From an uncultured Pelagibacteraceae bacterium (GTDB taxonomy: Bacteria > Pseudomonadota > Alphaproteobacteria > Pelagibacterales > Pelagibacteraceae): 64,000 nt of DNA. The stretch's first letter is position 1, and the number at the start of each line of letters is the position of its first letter. The notes under the pieces are model-generated. The model did not search any database, was not told the DNA's origin, and saw only the letters and a program-made list of their open reading frames with translations. Shown here piece after piece: positions 11,179-24,342 of the stretch. A program made the translations under genes and the position numbers. The stretch covers positions 1 through 64,000 of the forward strand of contig CACEVB010000001.1 of NCBI GenBank assembly GCA_902562875.1, read 5' to 3'.

Positions 11179-12579
11179 ATGTCAGAAAAATTTGATGTAA
11201 CAGTAATCGGTGGTGGGCCTGCTGGCTACGTATGTGCAATAAGAGCCTCACAGCTTGGATTAAAAACAGCCTGCATTGAGTCTAGAAATACTTTAGGTGG
11301 AACTTGTTTAAATATAGGATGCATACCATCAAAAAGTTTATTAAGTTTATCAGAATCTTTCCATAAGGCTCAAAATTTTTCAAAAATTGGAATCGAAACA
11401 GGCGAAATTAAGTTGAATCTTCCAAAAATGATGAAAAATAAAGATAAAGCAGTTACCGTTTTAACAAAAGGAGTAGAATTTTTACTTAAAAAAAATAAAG
11501 TAGATTATATAAAAGGCAAAGGAAGTTTACTAGGAGATAATAAAGTATCAATTAGTAGCAAAGATAATCAAACAAAAATTATTGAGAGTAAAAATATTAT
11601 TATTAGCACTGGTTCTGAAGCTTTAGGATTACCGGGAGTGGAGTTTGATGAGTCAAAAATTTTATCTTCAACAGGTGCACTGAGCATGTCTAAAGTGCCA
11701 AAAAAAATGTTGATAATAGGAGCTGGTTATATCGGACTTGAGATGGGATCAGTTTGGTCTAGACTTGGATCAGAAGTGCATGTAATTGAATACCTTGATC
11801 ATATAACACCAGGGCTAGATAAAGAAATATCAAATGAATTTATGAAAATATTAAAAAAGCAGAAAATAAATTTTCATTTAAATACTGAGGTTAAAAAAGT
11901 TTCCAAAACTGAAAATGGTGTAACTATTGAGACAAAGGATACTCAAAATAATAAGAATATATTCAGTGGTGATGTGGTGTTAGTTTCAGTTGGTAGAAAA
12001 CCTTACACAGAGAATCTAAATTTAGAAAAAGTTGGAATTCTTTGTAATGAAAAAGGAAGAATACAAGTAAATAGTAAATTTCAAACAAATGTAAATAATA
12101 TTTACGCTATAGGAGATGTTATAAATGGTCCTATGTTAGCTCATAAAGCTGAAGAGGAAGGAATTGCAGTTGCGGAATTGATTGCAGGTCAAGCAGGACA
12201 CGTAAATTACGATTTGGTACCAGGAGTAATTTATACTTCACCAGAAGTAGCGTATGTTGGAAAAAATGAGGAGGAATTAAAAAAAAATAGTATTAATTAT
12301 AAAGTGGGAAAATTTCCTTTCATGGCTAATTCAAGAGCAAAAGCCATAGATCAACCAGAAGGATTTGTAAAAATTTTAGCAGATCATAATACAGATAAGG
12401 TTTTAGGCGTCCATATTATAGGACCACATGCTGGAGAAATGATAGCTGAAATGTCAGTAGCTATGGAATTTGGCGCAAGCTCAGAGGATATTGCAAGAAC
12501 TTGCCATGCACATCCAACTTTTTCAGAAGCTATAAAAGAGGCAGCATTATCAGTAGATAAAAGACAGATTCACTCTTAA
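11179..12579 (+). CDS. lpdA: Dihydrolipoyl dehydrogenase
   Basis: GGTCLNIGCIPSK redox motif; IGAGYIGLEMGSVWSRLGS; HAHPTFSEA C-terminus. Confidence 0.96.
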   Translation: MSEKFDVTVIGGGPAGYVCAIRASQLGLKTACIESRNTLGGTCLNIGCIPSKSLLSLSESFHKAQNFSKIGIETGEIKLNLPKMMKNKDKAVTVLTKGVEFLLKKNKVDYIKGKGSLLGDNKVSISSKDNQTKIIESKNIIISTGSEALGLPGVEFDESKILSSTGALSMSKVPKKMLIIGAGYIGLEMGSVWSRLGSEVHVIEYLDHITPGLDKEISNEFMKILKKQKINFHLNTEVKKVSKTENGVTIETKDTQNNKNIFSGDVVLVSVGRKPYTENLNLEKVGILCNEKGRIQVNSKFQTNVNNIYAIGDVINGPMLAHKAEEEGIAVAELIAGQAGHVNYDLVPGVIYTSPEVAYVGKNEEELKKNSINYKVGKFPFMANSRAKAIDQPEGFVKILADHNTDKVLGVHIIGPHAGEMIAEMSVAMEFGASSEDIARTCHAHPTFSEAIKEAALSVDKRQIHS

Positions 12580-12636
12580 TTCCTATGTCAAAACGCGCTC
12601 TTACTAATATAAAATAAAACTATAACAGTAATTTAA

Positions 12637-13632
12637 ATGATAAAGTCTAACAATAATTTAAATTCTAAAATATTTGATGCTAGCGATATCAGCAAACCAT
12701 GGGATAAGGACAATCAGGCATGGTGGGATTGGTATGTAAGTCTTGCGGACAATAATGACAAAGAAAATAAAATCATTAATGCTGCTCCTTTACCAAATAT
12801 AGCAATACCCAGCGATGATGAGGTTCTTTTAGAGTTAAACCAACCCTATGATTTAACTAATGATCAAATTAAATTTTTTAAGAAAAATGGTTTCATAAAA
12901 CTTAAAAAAGTTTTCTCACCTGGAGCAGTGATTAAACTTAGAGCTAAGTTAATTAATTTATTAAAAAATCAGTTCCAGGTTGATCCAGATAAAGAGGGAA
13001 ATGATCGTTTCCTCAGTCTTGAGATGATATGGCCTAATAATTCCTTTCTTCGTGCTTATGTATTATCACCGCGTCTCGCACAAATTTCTGCAGATCTTCT
13101 TGAAGTACCAGCTGTTAGGCTCTACCACGACAATGTACTTGCAAAACAATCTGGATGTGGTCGTACCCCGTGGCACTTCGACGATCATCATTTTCCGCTA
13201 GACACTAACGATGTAGTGACCGCTTGGGTACCAGCACAGCCAACTCCTATAGAAATGGGACCGCTCTCATTTGCATATCCATTAGATGTACACAAATTAG
13301 TTAACTCTGTTTCGTTTGAAAAAACCGGAACGGGATATGACCGAGGGATATCTAATATTTTTTCAAAAAATAATGTTAGTGTTAATGAAACTCCATTTGA
13401 ATTAGGCGAAGTTAGTTTTCATCACAATTTAAGTTTTCATACAGCTTCACGTAACCGTACTAATCGTAGCCGAGTAGTTTTAGCCAATACTTATTATCGA
13501 GATGGAGCGAGAGTAGTCGATGCACCTACAATGGTCTCAGGCGACTGGCAGAAATTTATGCCAAATGTTAATCCAGGAGACATAGCCGCTAGTCCACTTA
13601 ATCCAATTTGTTGGCCAGTTAAAGACAAATAA
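12637..13632 (+). CDS. Phytanoyl-CoA dioxygenase (PhyH) family Fe(II)/2-oxoglutarate-dependent oxygenase
   Basis: TPWHFDDHHFP (HxD facial-triad motif), distal FHHNLSFHTASRNRTNRSR (His plus 2OG-binding Arg region), GDI...P C-terminus; stop overlaps next ATG (TAATG). Confidence 0.85.
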   Translation: MIKSNNNLNSKIFDASDISKPWDKDNQAWWDWYVSLADNNDKENKIINAAPLPNIAIPSDDEVLLELNQPYDLTNDQIKFFKKNGFIKLKKVFSPGAVIKLRAKLINLLKNQFQVDPDKEGNDRFLSLEMIWPNNSFLRAYVLSPRLAQISADLLEVPAVRLYHDNVLAKQSGCGRTPWHFDDHHFPLDTNDVVTAWVPAQPTPIEMGPLSFAYPLDVHKLVNSVSFEKTGTGYDRGISNIFSKNNVSVNETPFELGEVSFHHNLSFHTASRNRTNRSRVVLANTYYRDGARVVDAPTMVSGDWQKFMPNVNPGDIAASPLNPICWPVKDK

Positions 13633-14552
13633 TGAAAGAGATAAATAATCAAAAAGGATTAAATTCAATTTGGACTGAAAGTCTTACTAGCAATCTATAT
13701 CCTGATGGTAATGCTTTAGTTGATCATTTAAGAACTGTCCATAAAAAACATGCTGGATTTACAGAAGCATGCGCAAGTTCTTGTCGTGATGAAACTGGAC
13801 GCAATAGTTATGAATGGCTGGCAGAACTTGTACCTGATAATGAGGATTTATGTGTATTAGATCTTGCTTGTGGATCAGGACCATTATTAAAAATCTTATT
13901 TGATCGCAATAAAAAATTAAATTTAAAAGGTGTAGATATGTGTCCTGAGGAATTAGAATTGGCTAAGTCTCGACTTGTAAACAGTGGCGCTAACCTTTTT
14001 CAGTCAAAAGCGCAAAATTTGACTGTAATTAATGATAACTCTATTGACATGGTTTTTTGCCATTGGGCTTTGACATTAATGGATCCTATAACTCCTGTCT
14101 TAGAAGAAGTGAGACGCGTTTTAACTTCAAAAGGTAGGTTCGTAGCATTAGTTGATGGACCAATGAATACAGCACCTAACTACACAGAGGTACATGATTT
14201 AATTTATAGTTATGTGCAAGAAGAAATACCTAGCTATGGAAAGATTGATTTAGGTGATCCAAGGGTGCGAGGATCTGAAAGCCTTAGCAAACTTGTACGT
14301 AAAGTTTTTCCAAAATCAAATGTAATTATTGAAACAAATGTTGTATCTATGGAGGGGCCAGCTACTCAAGTAGCTGAAATTGCCGCGGGGTTTTTTTATG
14401 CTTCATTTGTCTTGAAACCAGAGAAAAGAAAATTAATGATTAGAAGTTTATCTAACTTACTCACAATATTCAAAAAAAATACTGAAGCTAAAAGACAAGG
14501 ACGATTTTCAATGCCAATTAGTCGTCTTTTAGTTGTACCTGATATAAAATGA
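13632..14552 (+). CDS. Class I SAM-dependent methyltransferase, substrate unknown
   Basis: VLDLACGSGPLLKIL motif I, LKGVDMCPEEL acidic loop, VFCHWALTLMDP; coupled to neighbours by overlapping start/stop codons. Confidence 0.85.
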   Translation: MKEINNQKGLNSIWTESLTSNLYPDGNALVDHLRTVHKKHAGFTEACASSCRDETGRNSYEWLAELVPDNEDLCVLDLACGSGPLLKILFDRNKKLNLKGVDMCPEELELAKSRLVNSGANLFQSKAQNLTVINDNSIDMVFCHWALTLMDPITPVLEEVRRVLTSKGRFVALVDGPMNTAPNYTEVHDLIYSYVQEEIPSYGKIDLGDPRVRGSESLSKLVRKVFPKSNVIIETNVVSMEGPATQVAEIAAGFFYASFVLKPEKRKLMIRSLSNLLTIFKKNTEAKRQGRFSMPISRLLVVPDIK

Positions 14553-15469
14553 AATCATTTTTACAAGAAGTAAGTATCGGTTTAAGTAAGAAAAATAAAA
14601 AGCTTAGTTCAAAATGGTTTTACGACTTTCATGGATCAATGCTTTTTGAACAAATTACTAAGCTGAAAGAATATTACCCAACACGAACTGAAAGAAAAAT
14701 TTTAAAAAATAATAAAATTGAAATTGCTAAAAAGATAGGCAAAAGTGCAGTTTTAATTGAGCCAGGTGCTGGAGACATAAAAAAAATTGGTATTTTTCTG
14801 AGCACCTTAGATAAGCCGAAAAAATATATACCCCTAGATATTTCTAAAGATTATATAACTAAAATATCTAAAGGCTTTAAAAAGAAATTTCCTAAAGTAA
14901 CTATTATTCCTAAAGGATATGATTTTTCTAGAGATAATAAACTACCTTTTAAAATTAATTCATCAGAAAATATAACTATTTTTTTCCCTGGATCAACTAT
15001 CGGTAATTTTGAAAAAAAAGATGCTATTAAATTCTTAAGAATGCTTAAATCAAAATTCAAAGCAAAAAAAATTATTATTGGTGCTGACTTAGTTAAAGAT
15101 ATTCCAACTTTAATATCTGCTTATGATGACAAAAAAGGCATAACTGCAAAATTCAACAAAAATATTTTACAAAGAATTAATACTGAGTTGGGTGGAAATA
15201 TAAACTTAAATTCCTATGAGCATTTAGTAATTTATAATAAGTCAAAAAAAAGAATTGAGATGCGATTAAAGTCTACCAAAAATAATAATATTAAAATAAA
15301 TGGTTCAAAGTATTCAATTAAAAAAAACGAAGAGATTCACACTGAGAATTCTCATAAATATACTATTAACTCATTCAAAAAATTAGCCAATGAGGCAGGA
15401 TGGAATATTGGTAAAACCTGGGTTGATGACAAAAAACTCTTTAGTGTTCATTTTCTAGACCTGGCTTAA
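14549..15469 (+). CDS. egtD: EgtD-like L-histidine N(alpha)-methyltransferase family protein
   Basis: SSKWFYDFHGSMLFEQITKLKEYYPTRTERKIL, PGSTIGNFEKKDA, GADLVKDIPTLISAYDDKKGITAKFNKN and EEIHTENSHKY align with remembered mycobacterial EgtD motifs. Confidence 0.88.
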   Translation: MKSFLQEVSIGLSKKNKKLSSKWFYDFHGSMLFEQITKLKEYYPTRTERKILKNNKIEIAKKIGKSAVLIEPGAGDIKKIGIFLSTLDKPKKYIPLDISKDYITKISKGFKKKFPKVTIIPKGYDFSRDNKLPFKINSSENITIFFPGSTIGNFEKKDAIKFLRMLKSKFKAKKIIIGADLVKDIPTLISAYDDKKGITAKFNKNILQRINTELGGNINLNSYEHLVIYNKSKKRIEMRLKSTKNNNIKINGSKYSIKKNEEIHTENSHKYTINSFKKLANEAGWNIGKTWVDDKKLFSVHFLDLA

Positions 15470-15551: not shown

Positions 15552-17507
15552 ATGAAATATCCTGTCCTTTTACCAAATATTTTTGGATACCCTTTTACGT
15601 ATAGTAGTAAAAAAAAACTTGATATTGGTCAGTATGTAAAAGTTCCATTTGGTAAAGCTCAAATGACAGGATTAATTTGGCATAAATTTCAAGATGATAC
15701 AAAAAAAAAATTTCAAATTAAAAATATATTAGAGGAAATCAATACACCTAAACTTAATGTAAAAACATTGAAGTTTTTAGAATGGTTTTCTGAATATAAT
15801 ATGGTTCCACTTGGAATGTCTCTAAAATTACATTTACTAAGTAATGAAGCGGTAGGAAAATTTGACAAAAAATTTTATGAACATTTTTCAAGCAACAAAA
15901 TTCCAAAAGACTTTAGGTTTACTCAAGAACAAAAAGAATCTATAAAAAAAATGGAAAACAAAACAGCTGGTTTTAGAGTTCATTTGCTTCAAGGAACTAC
16001 TGGTTCAGGAAAGACTTTAGTTTATTTTAATTCAGTTATGGAAAAAGTTAAAAAGGGTTTACAAGCATTGATTTTGCTTCCAGAAATTGGTCTTACTTTT
16101 GAATTTGAAAAAAAATTCGAAGAATTTTTTGGATTTAATCCAGCTATCTGGCACTCGGGAATTTCAAAAAAGAATAAAAAAATTATATGGAGTGGATTAG
16201 CAACTGGAAAAATAAAAGTTGTAATAGGTGCCCGTTCATCATTATTTTTGCCATTTAAAAATCTAGGAGAAATTATTGTAGATGAGGAACATGATCAATC
16301 TTTCAAACAAGATGAGGGGGTAATATATAATGCTAGAGATATGGCAATAGCTAGAGCAAAATTTGAAAATATTCCAATCAATTTAATTAGTGCCGTTCCT
16401 TCCATAGAAACATATCAAAATATCAAAATTAACAAATACTCTTATTCAAGATTATTAAAAAGACACAAAAATGCAAGTTTGCCAAATCATGAAATTATTA
16501 ATCTTAGAGAGCACAAACCACCAAAAAAAAATTTTATTAGTCCTTTAACAAAAGAAAAAGTATTAAATCATCTTAAAAAAGGAGATCAGGTTTTATTTTT
16601 TATAAATAGAAGAGGATATTCACCGCATGTTATGTGTAAGAATTGTCTAAAAGTTTTTTCATGTTTAAATTGCTCTATAAATTTAGTCTACCATAAAAAA
16701 AAAAATAAACTATTTTGTCATTATTGCGGTTTTACATCTAGTGTTAATAGAAATTGTTCAAGAGATAAAAAATGTGAATTAATTTTTAGTGGCCCTGGAG
16801 TTGAAAAAATCAAAGAAGAAGTAAATAATCTGTTTCCAAATTATAAAACACAAATATTTTCGAGTGACACTATGAGTAAAAAATCTTCAAGTCAGTTACT
16901 AGAAAAAATTATAAATAACGAAATTAATATATTAGTTGGTACTCAACTTATTTCAAAAGGTTTCCATTTCCCAAGTTTAAATTGCATTGTGGTTTTAGAT
17001 ATTGATTTATCCTCCTCAGGACATGATTTAAGAGCTTCAGAAAAAAATCTCCAATTATATCATCAATTATCTGGTAGAGCGGGTAGAGAAGGAAAGCCAG
17101 CAACTGTATATTTTCAAACCTACGATTTAAACTCTAAAACCATAAATACCATAACAAATGAGGATCCATTTATTTTTCTAGAAAACGAAATTAAAATTAG
17201 AAAAAAATTTAATCTTCCTCCATTCGAAAGATTTATTAGCTTAATACTAACGTCTCATGATTCAAAAAAATTATATTTGCAGTCAGTAGATATTAAAAAC
17301 TTTTTAGTAAAAAATATTAAAATTAGAGTTTTAGGACCTGTGGAGGCACCAATATTTAGAATAAAAAAAAATTACAGGTATAGAATTCTATTAAGATCTC
17401 CAAAATCAATAAATTTACAAAAAAAATTGTCAAAACTACTTGAAAATTTTCAGATTCAACCTGGAGTAAAATTAACTGTTGATGTTGATCCAATTACCTT
17501 CAATTAA
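15552..17507 (+). CDS. priA: Primosomal protein N' (PriA helicase)
   Basis: GTTGSGKTLVYF Walker A, VDEEHDQSFKQDEG, zinc-binding region CKNCLKVFSCLNC...CHYCGF, LSGRAGREGKP. Confidence 0.93.
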   Translation: MKYPVLLPNIFGYPFTYSSKKKLDIGQYVKVPFGKAQMTGLIWHKFQDDTKKKFQIKNILEEINTPKLNVKTLKFLEWFSEYNMVPLGMSLKLHLLSNEAVGKFDKKFYEHFSSNKIPKDFRFTQEQKESIKKMENKTAGFRVHLLQGTTGSGKTLVYFNSVMEKVKKGLQALILLPEIGLTFEFEKKFEEFFGFNPAIWHSGISKKNKKIIWSGLATGKIKVVIGARSSLFLPFKNLGEIIVDEEHDQSFKQDEGVIYNARDMAIARAKFENIPINLISAVPSIETYQNIKINKYSYSRLLKRHKNASLPNHEIINLREHKPPKKNFISPLTKEKVLNHLKKGDQVLFFINRRGYSPHVMCKNCLKVFSCLNCSINLVYHKKKNKLFCHYCGFTSSVNRNCSRDKKCELIFSGPGVEKIKEEVNNLFPNYKTQIFSSDTMSKKSSSQLLEKIINNEINILVGTQLISKGFHFPSLNCIVVLDIDLSSSGHDLRASEKNLQLYHQLSGRAGREGKPATVYFQTYDLNSKTINTITNEDPFIFLENEIKIRKKFNLPPFERFISLILTSHDSKKLYLQSVDIKNFLVKNIKIRVLGPVEAPIFRIKKNYRYRILLRSPKSINLQKKLSKLLENFQIQPGVKLTVDVDPITFN

Positions 17508-22864: not shown

Positions 22865-23995
22865 TTAACTCTTTAAAAGTTTTAAAGCAAACTTTAATTG
22901 ATTATCAGTCTCAGTATTTATTCTGAATTCGTCATTTTCCTCTTCTATTTCAAAATCTGGCACAACCCCTACTTCAGAAATTGAATCTCCAGATGGTAAA
23001 TAGTATTTTGAAACTGTAAGCCTAATCGCTCCGTTATTTTTTAGCGGGATAATAGATTGCACAGATCCTTTGCCATATGATCTTTCACCAATTAAAATTG
23101 CTCTCTTGTGGTCTTTCAACGCCCCTGCTACAATTTCAGAGGCTGATGCAGAACCATAATTAATTAAAACAATCATGGTACTTCCGTTTAAAATATCCCC
23201 AGACTTAGCGAACCACTTTTTATTCTCATAGTTCTTTCGGCTTTTAGTCGAGACAATTTCCCCATTTTCCAAAAAGTAATCTGAAATTTTAATTGCTTGG
23301 GAAAGCAAACCTCCAGGATTATTTCTTAAATCTAATATGTAGTATTTAATTTTATTATTTTTTTTAAACTCATTTACTTTTTTTTTTATCTGATCGCTAC
23401 TATTTTCATTAAATGATGTTAGTCTAATATAACCAACATTATCCTCTTTTACCTCACTTTTGACTGATGTTACCTCTATTATTTGTCGAGTGATTATAAA
23501 TTTTAGTGATTTTTTCAAGCCTATTCGCCTTACAGTGATTTCTATATTAGAACCAACTGGTCCTCGCATAAGATCTACAGCCTCAGATAATGACTTACCT
23601 TGAACTTGGATATCATTTATTTTAATAATGTAGTCTCCTGCTTTTACGCCTACTTTATAAGCTGGAGAGTTATCAATAGGCGATATTACTTTAACTACAC
23701 CTGCCTCCATGCTAACCTCAATACCTAGGCCTCCAAATTCTCCACTGGTCTCTGTAGCCATGTTTTTAAAAGCATCTGGCGACATGTAAGCAGAATAAGG
23801 GTCTAATGATTGCAAAACACCATTAATAGCAGCATCCATGGCATCACTCTGGTTTACTTCTTCAACATAATCATTATTTATTTTTTCCAAAACTTCGCTG
23901 AATGTATCAATTTTCTCGTAAATATCCGACTTGACTTCTTTGATTTGAAATATGCACAAAGATATTAAGGAAAAAATTAATAAATTTTTATTCAT
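22865..23995 (-). CDS. ctpA: S41 family C-terminal processing peptidase (start adjusted to internal Met; ORF track extends to 24031)
   Basis: PDZ domain, GSASASEIVAGALKDHKRAILIGERSYGKGSVQ catalytic Ser/Lys motif; signal peptide MNKNLLIFSLISLCIF. Confidence 0.92.
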   Translation of the reverse strand: MNKNLLIFSLISLCIFQIKEVKSDIYEKIDTFSEVLEKINNDYVEEVNQSDAMDAAINGVLQSLDPYSAYMSPDAFKNMATETSGEFGGLGIEVSMEAGVVKVISPIDNSPAYKVGVKAGDYIIKINDIQVQGKSLSEAVDLMRGPVGSNIEITVRRIGLKKSLKFIITRQIIEVTSVKSEVKEDNVGYIRLTSFNENSSDQIKKKVNEFKKNNKIKYYILDLRNNPGGLLSQAIKISDYFLENGEIVSTKSRKNYENKKWFAKSGDILNGSTMIVLINYGSASASEIVAGALKDHKRAILIGERSYGKGSVQSIIPLKNNGAIRLTVSKYYLPSGDSISEVGVVPDFEIEEENDEFRINTETDNQLKFALKLLKS

Positions 23996-24342
23996 ATAAT
24001 CACTTTTTCTTTTGGTATTAGTTCTGACCACATTTTTTCTAATTCATAGAATTTTCTTTTTTCAGGGTTAAAAATATGGATTATTAAATCGATTCCATCA
24101 ACTAACTTCCAATCACTACTATCTCTACCTTCAATTTTAGGATCCTTAACTCCTTGGCGTTTTAATTCTTCAAGTACTTGTTCAGATAATGATTGAATAT
24201 GTCTAGATGAAGTACCACTTGCAATTATCATAAAATCAGCAATCGACGACTTCCCTTCAAGATCAATTGTAATTATGTCTGATGCTTTGTTATTATCGAG
24301 CGTGTGTATTATCTTATCTTTTAACTCTGAATATTTTGGCAT
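23992..24342 (-). CDS. rsfS: Ribosomal silencing factor RsfS (start adjusted to MPKYSELKDKI; ORF track extends to 24363)
   Basis: DUF143 motifs: ADFMIIASGTSSRHIQSLSEQV, EGRDSSDWKLVDGIDLIIHIF. Confidence 0.93.
   Translation of the reverse strand: MPKYSELKDKIIHTLDNNKASDIITIDLEGKSSIADFMIIASGTSSRHIQSLSEQVLEELKRQGVKDPKIEGRDSSDWKLVDGIDLIIHIFNPEKRKFYELEKMWSELIPKEKVII

Follow-up and report, generated by a model that had tools for sequence, protein, structure and literature searches.

What product might come from three overlapping genes that combine a predicted EgtD with a PhyH-type oxygenase and a further methyltransferase, given that hercynine is usually regarded as an intermediate of ergothioneine? 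The window, that is, the whole stretch of 64,000 nucleotides analysed here, belongs to a SAR11 (Pelagibacterales) genome, G000 (1.07 Mb, 27 contigs, 87% complete), whose nearest relatives are Pelagibacteraceae. On its forward strand are found a PhyH-family Fe(II)/2-oxoglutarate (2OG) oxygenase of 331 residues (12637-13632; Pfam PF05721, with invariant HxD/H/R residues), a class I SAM methyltransferase of 306 residues, named MTB here (13632-14552; PF08241/PF13847), and an EgtD, L-histidine N-alpha-methyltransferase, also of 306 residues (14549-15469; above the TIGR03438 cutoff). The first-pass annotation had placed the three reading frames at these positions between lpdA (11179-12579, +) and priA (15552-17507, +), joined by overlapping codons, and both the layout and the overlaps (TAATG at 13630-13634 and ATGA at 14549-14552) are verified. 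The two flanking genes, considered only as context, delimit an insertion site: they abut directly, with no insert, in five SAR11 genomes (G003, G035, G051, G140 and G143), and other SAR11 genomes show different content between them. No Rfam riboswitch is detected near the cassette at gathering score. Elsewhere in the window, an Rfam match to the Rickettsia sRNA Rp_sR47 (65 bits, 23030-23329) lies antisense within a carboxy-terminal-protease-like gene (22865-24031, minus strand) and probably reflects coding-sequence conservation rather than an sRNA.

The predicted EgtD step, from histidine to hercynine, is well supported. The window protein scores 327 bits against the Pfam model Methyltransf_33 (cutoff 23) and 349.4 bits against the TIGR03438 EgtD equivalog (cutoff 290.9), covering profile positions 2-300 of 301. 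M. smegmatis EgtD aligns with it along the full length, and Y39, Y56, N166, Y206, T213, M252, E282 and S284 (M. smegmatis numbering) are retained in the alignment; crystal structures give these residues roles in histidine binding. Judged by model score and site residues, this protein, the single EgtD of the G000 assembly, looks like a true histidine methyltransferase. In the EgtD tree, the SAR11 cassette enzymes form one supported clade beside the EgtB-linked SAR11 EgtDs. A different group of EgtDs (37-38% identical) lies upstream of PhyH-MTB on the same strand in loci L050, L068 and L076, with M252L in L050 and L076, and another (38-39%) is divergent in L075 (Marivita) and L080 (Rhodobacteraceae). 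Thus, because EgtDs tied to PhyH-MTB (downstream, upstream and divergent) fall in three separate branches, there appear to have been at least three origins of the linkage; deep in the tree, branches are long and their exact placement is uncertain. As a separate observation, EgtD-like genes of the SAR11 genus g2 (L101:5912-6817, L103:6228-7130, L104:2256-3176, L106:5861-6763 and L107:5365-6267) carry M252G in the histidine pocket in the three that were aligned, and one scores just below the equivalog cutoff. These genes adjoin an iron-type ABC transporter and, in most cases, also a ProX/ProW-like betaine transporter; a TmpA/gamma-butyrobetaine-dioxygenase-like protein (L104:5315-6415) is found near one such set of EgtD and betaine transporter genes.

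The oxygenase scores 49 bits against PF05721 (cutoff 22), and H180-x-D182, H268 and R279 are invariant among 29 homologues down to 56% identity, H268 as metal ligand and R279 as 2OG arginine being assigned by analogy. A halogenase is ruled out by the HxD motif, in place of HxG or HxA, and by a chlorinating-enzyme model score of 14.9 bits against a cutoff of 226. An N-terminal tryptophan-rich extension (residues ~20-39) is nearly invariant in the family, and within it the stretch W22..N26-Q27..W29-W30-D31-W32-Y33 is invariant across the 29-homologue alignment; it could provide a putative aromatic cage for a trimethylammonium group. The nearest folds, in evidence limited to five AlphaFold models of mean pLDDT 45 to 78, are SnoK/SnoN, MysH, proline hydroxylase H11, GriE and EctD, enzymes acting on small polar or natural-product substrates. 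SnoK/SnoN, from nogalamycin synthesis, are the best match both in sequence (E 5e-12) and in fold; however, they are a polyketide carbocyclase/epimerase, the identity is about 20% and the match omits the tryptophan-rich extension. EctD (hydroxyectoine), H11 and GriE are PhyH-type Fe(II)/2OG hydroxylases of small polar solutes with close folds, although their identity to the cassette enzyme in fold alignments is about 17-20% and their genetic partners are others. Carnitine synthesis, with its trimethyllysine and gamma-butyrobetaine dioxygenases, would follow a like scheme, combining trimethylation with the hydroxylation of a betaine by a 2OG-dependent enzyme, but its oxygenases belong to the TauD/BBOX family, and the window PhyH gives no significant match to carnitine models.

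For its part, MTB scores 58 bits against Methyltransf_11 (cutoff 21.2), and D77, A79, C80, G81, G83 and D102, which correspond to SAM motif I and the acidic residue at the end of strand 2, are invariant in 42 homologues. Its AlphaFold model (pLDDT 92) is closest to HvrF and other small-molecule methyltransferases, so that by modelled fold MTB is a small-molecule methyltransferase. A second methyltransferase of ~280 residues, MTA, is present in all nine non-SAR11 PhyH genomes tested versus none of ten SAR11 genomes. It is placed between PhyH and MTB in Rhodobacterales and in a Thioalkalivibrio MAG; in G242 the order is PhyH-MTA-MFS transporter-MTB, and in G280 a PutP-like sodium:solute symporter gene and a convergent MFS-MTA pair come after PhyH-MTB, with EgtB-EgtD and a cysteine-desulfurase/EgtE-like gene on a separate contig. 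Such sets of PhyH, MTB and MTA with transporters resemble a solute pathway with transport.

The PhyH-MTB pair is linked to EgtD far beyond the window. In a scan of one genome per species across 85,462 species, the best 80 of 155 PhyH relatives were retained; nearly all of these 80 are from SAR11, MTB lies downstream of PhyH in nearly all their loci and MTA intervenes in four. EgtD is joined to PhyH-MTB in at least about 45 SAR11 loci. The order LpdA-PhyH-MTB-EgtD is observed in at least 16 loci (in 15 of these PriA can also be seen, matching the window), EgtB-PhyH-MTB-EgtD in at least 19 sister species, with egtB directly upstream of phyH, and PhyH-MTB-EgtD in other contexts in at least 14 further loci; PhyH-MTB stands without a nearby EgtD in at least about 30, a few of the loci in these last two groups being second copies of one locus from the genome collection. 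Outside SAR11, the Burkholderiales MAG locus L076 shows EgtD-PhyH-MTB-EgtB. The recurrence in related genomes on which the first-pass reading depended is therefore confirmed, in dozens of species, and together with the linkage of separate EgtD branches and the low dN/dS values given below it rules out chance adjacency. On the other hand, PhyH-MTB is unlinked to egtD in genus g2, where the two lie on separate contigs, and in several other alphaproteobacteria.

Several neighbours of these genes are worth recording. Another SAR11 group carries EgtB-EgtD-methyltransferase (209 aa)-Rieske ring-hydroxylating oxygenase (L098:2460-6456, L105:4118-8114 and L147:5885-9881), a parallel addition of an oxygenase plus a methyltransferase to ergothioneine genes. 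A DMSP-demethylase-like GcvT protein repeatedly adjoins EgtB-EgtD or EgtD (L094:7145-9275, L098:6555-8637 and L101:6820-8911), and the same three loci encode a 242-residue protein weakly similar to methylenetetrahydrofolate reductase, which could reflect methyl cycling or a shared site of insertion. Also, in the complete SAR11 genome G040, a glutaredoxin-DinB_2 fusion protein (L097:9155-9994) lies downstream of the triad.

Presence and absence across genomes point in the same direction as linkage. In a family sample of 146 SAR11 genomes, close PhyH proteins are found in 25, EgtD in 39 and EgtB, counted as a DinB_2-FGE protein beside EgtD, in 10. EgtD is present in 23 of the 25 genomes with PhyH versus 16 of the 121 lacking it (odds ratio 75, p = 2e-14), and the 39 EgtD-positive genomes divide into 21 with PhyH only, 8 with EgtB only, 2 with both and 8 with neither (p = 0.007); since the genomes share ancestry, both p-values overstate significance. 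Among these EgtD-positive genomes, those with PhyH tend to lack EgtB and vice versa. In all, of 44 PhyH-bearing genomes 41 also have EgtD, among them all 11 from outside SAR11, against a base rate of 129/387 (33%) in Alphaproteobacteria; the three genomes of the 44 in which no EgtD match was found are small, probably incomplete assemblies. Because co-occurrence without linkage and the separate linkages agree, PhyH-MTB appears to track EgtD and hercynine formation more than EgtB and sulfur insertion. This bears on the strongest of the alternatives, in which PhyH-MTB makes a compatible solute of its own, or a hydroxylated, methylated amino acid unrelated to hercynine, and EgtD keeps it company through a shared stress or osmotic response and flexible regions. 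The sets of PhyH, MTB and MTA with MFS and sodium:solute symporter genes that lie far from egtD in G280 and G242 would fit such a scheme, as would the separate contigs of g2 and the likeness of PhyH to proline, leucine and ectoine hydroxylases. Nonetheless, EgtD is retained by nearly all PhyH genomes even when unlinked, and distinct EgtDs have been joined to the pair in separate arrangements, and we consider an independent solute unlikely.

The relation to sulfur insertion is less simple. EgtB-type sulfoxide synthases combine DinB_2 and FGE-sulfatase domains, the latter being the core domain of EgtB, OvoA and SenA. The first-pass annotation had noted no EgtB or OvoA in the window, and a search for the FGE-sulfatase domain extends this to the whole G000 assembly: none is found in its 1.07 Mb (87% complete), and therefore no EgtB, OvoA or SenA, which at that completeness speaks against the synthesis of ovothiol or selenoneine. 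None of the rhodanese proteins of G000 is longer than 302 residues or lies in the cassette, which, in a comparison made without an EanB-specific model, speaks weakly against EanB. A metallopterin-dependent ergothioneine synthase is also on record (PMC9516567). EgtB is likewise not found in any of 16 other genomes with the window-type lpdA..priA arrangement or in the g2 genomes, and the complete genome G040, which has the triad, shows no EgtB; its sole FGE protein, stand-alone and 265 residues long, is of a kind that also occurs in SAR11 lacking EgtD. However, EgtB scores above cutoff in 12 of the 44 PhyH-bearing genomes, and an EgtB-like gene is present in 8 of the 11 outside SAR11. The earlier suggestion of a cassette with a product other than ergothioneine is, then, partly supported, by G000, the 16 same-site genomes and G040, but not as a system set apart: because at least 19 sister species carry egtB next to phyH, the cassette is part of the same gene pool as the ergothioneine and hercynine genes. 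For the EgtB carriers, those species and the 8 non-SAR11 genomes, ergothioneine itself could be the substrate of PhyH-MTB. A general version of this idea, in which the pair tailors ergothioneine (for example, to an oxidised or methylated form) and the window type either is decaying after the loss of egtB or takes up ergothioneine from outside, would agree with both egtB-containing gene orders and with the EgtB-EgtD-methyltransferase-Rieske group; it is nevertheless improbable, more so than an independent solute, as the window-type genomes, G040 and g2 lack a detectable EgtB and yet the cassette is under purifying selection. Finally, the order could be reversed, with histidine or a relative modified by PhyH and MTB before EgtD adds its three methyl groups as the last step. 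Such a route would suit the position of egtD as final gene of the window operon and the wider pocket that M252G in g2 or M252L in L050 and L076 could give, but it is very improbable, given that none of the histidine-site residues examined, M252 among them, has changed in the window EgtD or its close kin, and that these group with EgtB-linked enzymes that make hercynine for ergothioneine.

Divergence measures reveal how the cassette has moved. Between the window and locus L002, dS is 0.28 for MTB and 0.15 for EgtD, and 1.56 for the flanking lpdA; other genome pairs differ in the same direction. Because cassette dS is far below that of lpdA, the cassette has been exchanged between lineages. It is under purifying selection, with dN/dS of about 0.07-0.17 for PhyH and EgtD and 0.09-0.26 for MTB. 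PhyH is rare across the class, with 5 close matches in 387 alphaproteobacterial genomes. Plasmid matches (Streptomyces and Emticicia) proved to be distant PhyH proteins in other contexts, and no match to the cassette was found among phage records.

The cassette also carries a conserved upstream element (12585-12630, +), with the core AAAACGCGCTCTTACTAAT at 12590-12608 followed by an A-rich spacer and a TATAA-like box. In 67 of 73 SAR11 loci it occupies a fixed position, -45 to -49 relative to phyH, irrespective of which gene lies upstream (lpdA, egtB or others), and it matches at 13/20 or better in 66 loci, control stretches never exceeding 12/20. It is the sole match in the window, where 0.01 would be expected, and no strong copy was found elsewhere in the examined loci. 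The six SAR11 loci without it are the group with EgtD outside the cassette, and the one of them that was read lies downstream of a superoxide dismutase-like gene. From this conservation, the element is probably the cassette's own promoter or a regulator site, and transcription of phyH seems to have a start of its own, also where egtB is the neighbour. It is called only promoter-like because a generic scan for classical sigma-70 promoters gave no call there. A leader peptide (MSKRALTNIK) within the element is ruled out, there being no ATG at that place in the g2 loci.

We propose that the cassette is a transferable unit in which EgtD, hydroxylation by PhyH and methylation by MTB would lead to a sulfur-free betaine derived from hercynine, a proposal to which we give even chances. 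EgtD would trimethylate histidine to hercynine, PhyH would convert hercynine to hydroxyhercynine with Fe(II), O2 and 2-oxoglutarate, and MTB would methylate the hydroxylated product, in which the new oxygen and the imidazole are candidate sites; for PhyH and MTB, we infer the substrate, order, position and product. In non-SAR11 proteobacteria the system would be extended by MTA and, in those genomes that encode them close by, by MFS transporters and sodium:solute symporters, and where egtB is present hercynine would be split between the PhyH-MTB branch and ergothioneine. This reading is supported by the excess of EgtD among PhyH genomes and its three linkage arrangements, by the lack of EgtB in window-type genomes together with the kept histidine site, and by the invariant catalytic motifs of PhyH and MTB, the resemblance of PhyH to small-molecule and amino-acid hydroxylases and the low dN/dS; it is weakened by the EgtB carriers described above, by the PhyH-MTB pairs unlinked to egtD in g2 and several alphaproteobacteria, and by the three PhyH genomes with no EgtD match. 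The wider claim of a new histidine-betaine branch, with hercynine hydroxylated by PhyH and methylated once in SAR11 or twice in other proteobacteria to a sulfur-free solute, present in many SAR11 lineages and laterally spread, is more tentative, its chances falling somewhat short of even. Use of the product as a compatible solute or protectant is a guess.

Compared with the ergothioneine pathway (EgtD-EgtB and an EgtE-like C-S lyase), the EgtD step is common and the cassette EgtD is sister to EgtB-linked ones, but a PhyH oxygenase and a further methyltransferase are added and no EgtB/OvoA/SenA domain is found in G000. Hercynine and its thiol have been reported in cyanobacteria (PMC3826126). 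In the searched literature, which included few subscription journals, no paper was found on ergothioneine with SAR11, EgtD with Pelagibacter, or "hydroxyhercynine"; of the proposed steps, that of EgtD is already known, and the branch through the oxygenase and methyltransferase appears to be undescribed. Few kinds of cell in the ocean are more abundant than SAR11 bacteria, and their genomes are small. Because these genomes are small and the cassette is laterally shared and selected, its product would be one worth keeping. If the proposal is true, a prediction directly testable by mass spectrometry, a dedicated hercynine branch would give a use to EgtD genes that occur without EgtB and would represent a new metabolite in marine dissolved organic matter.
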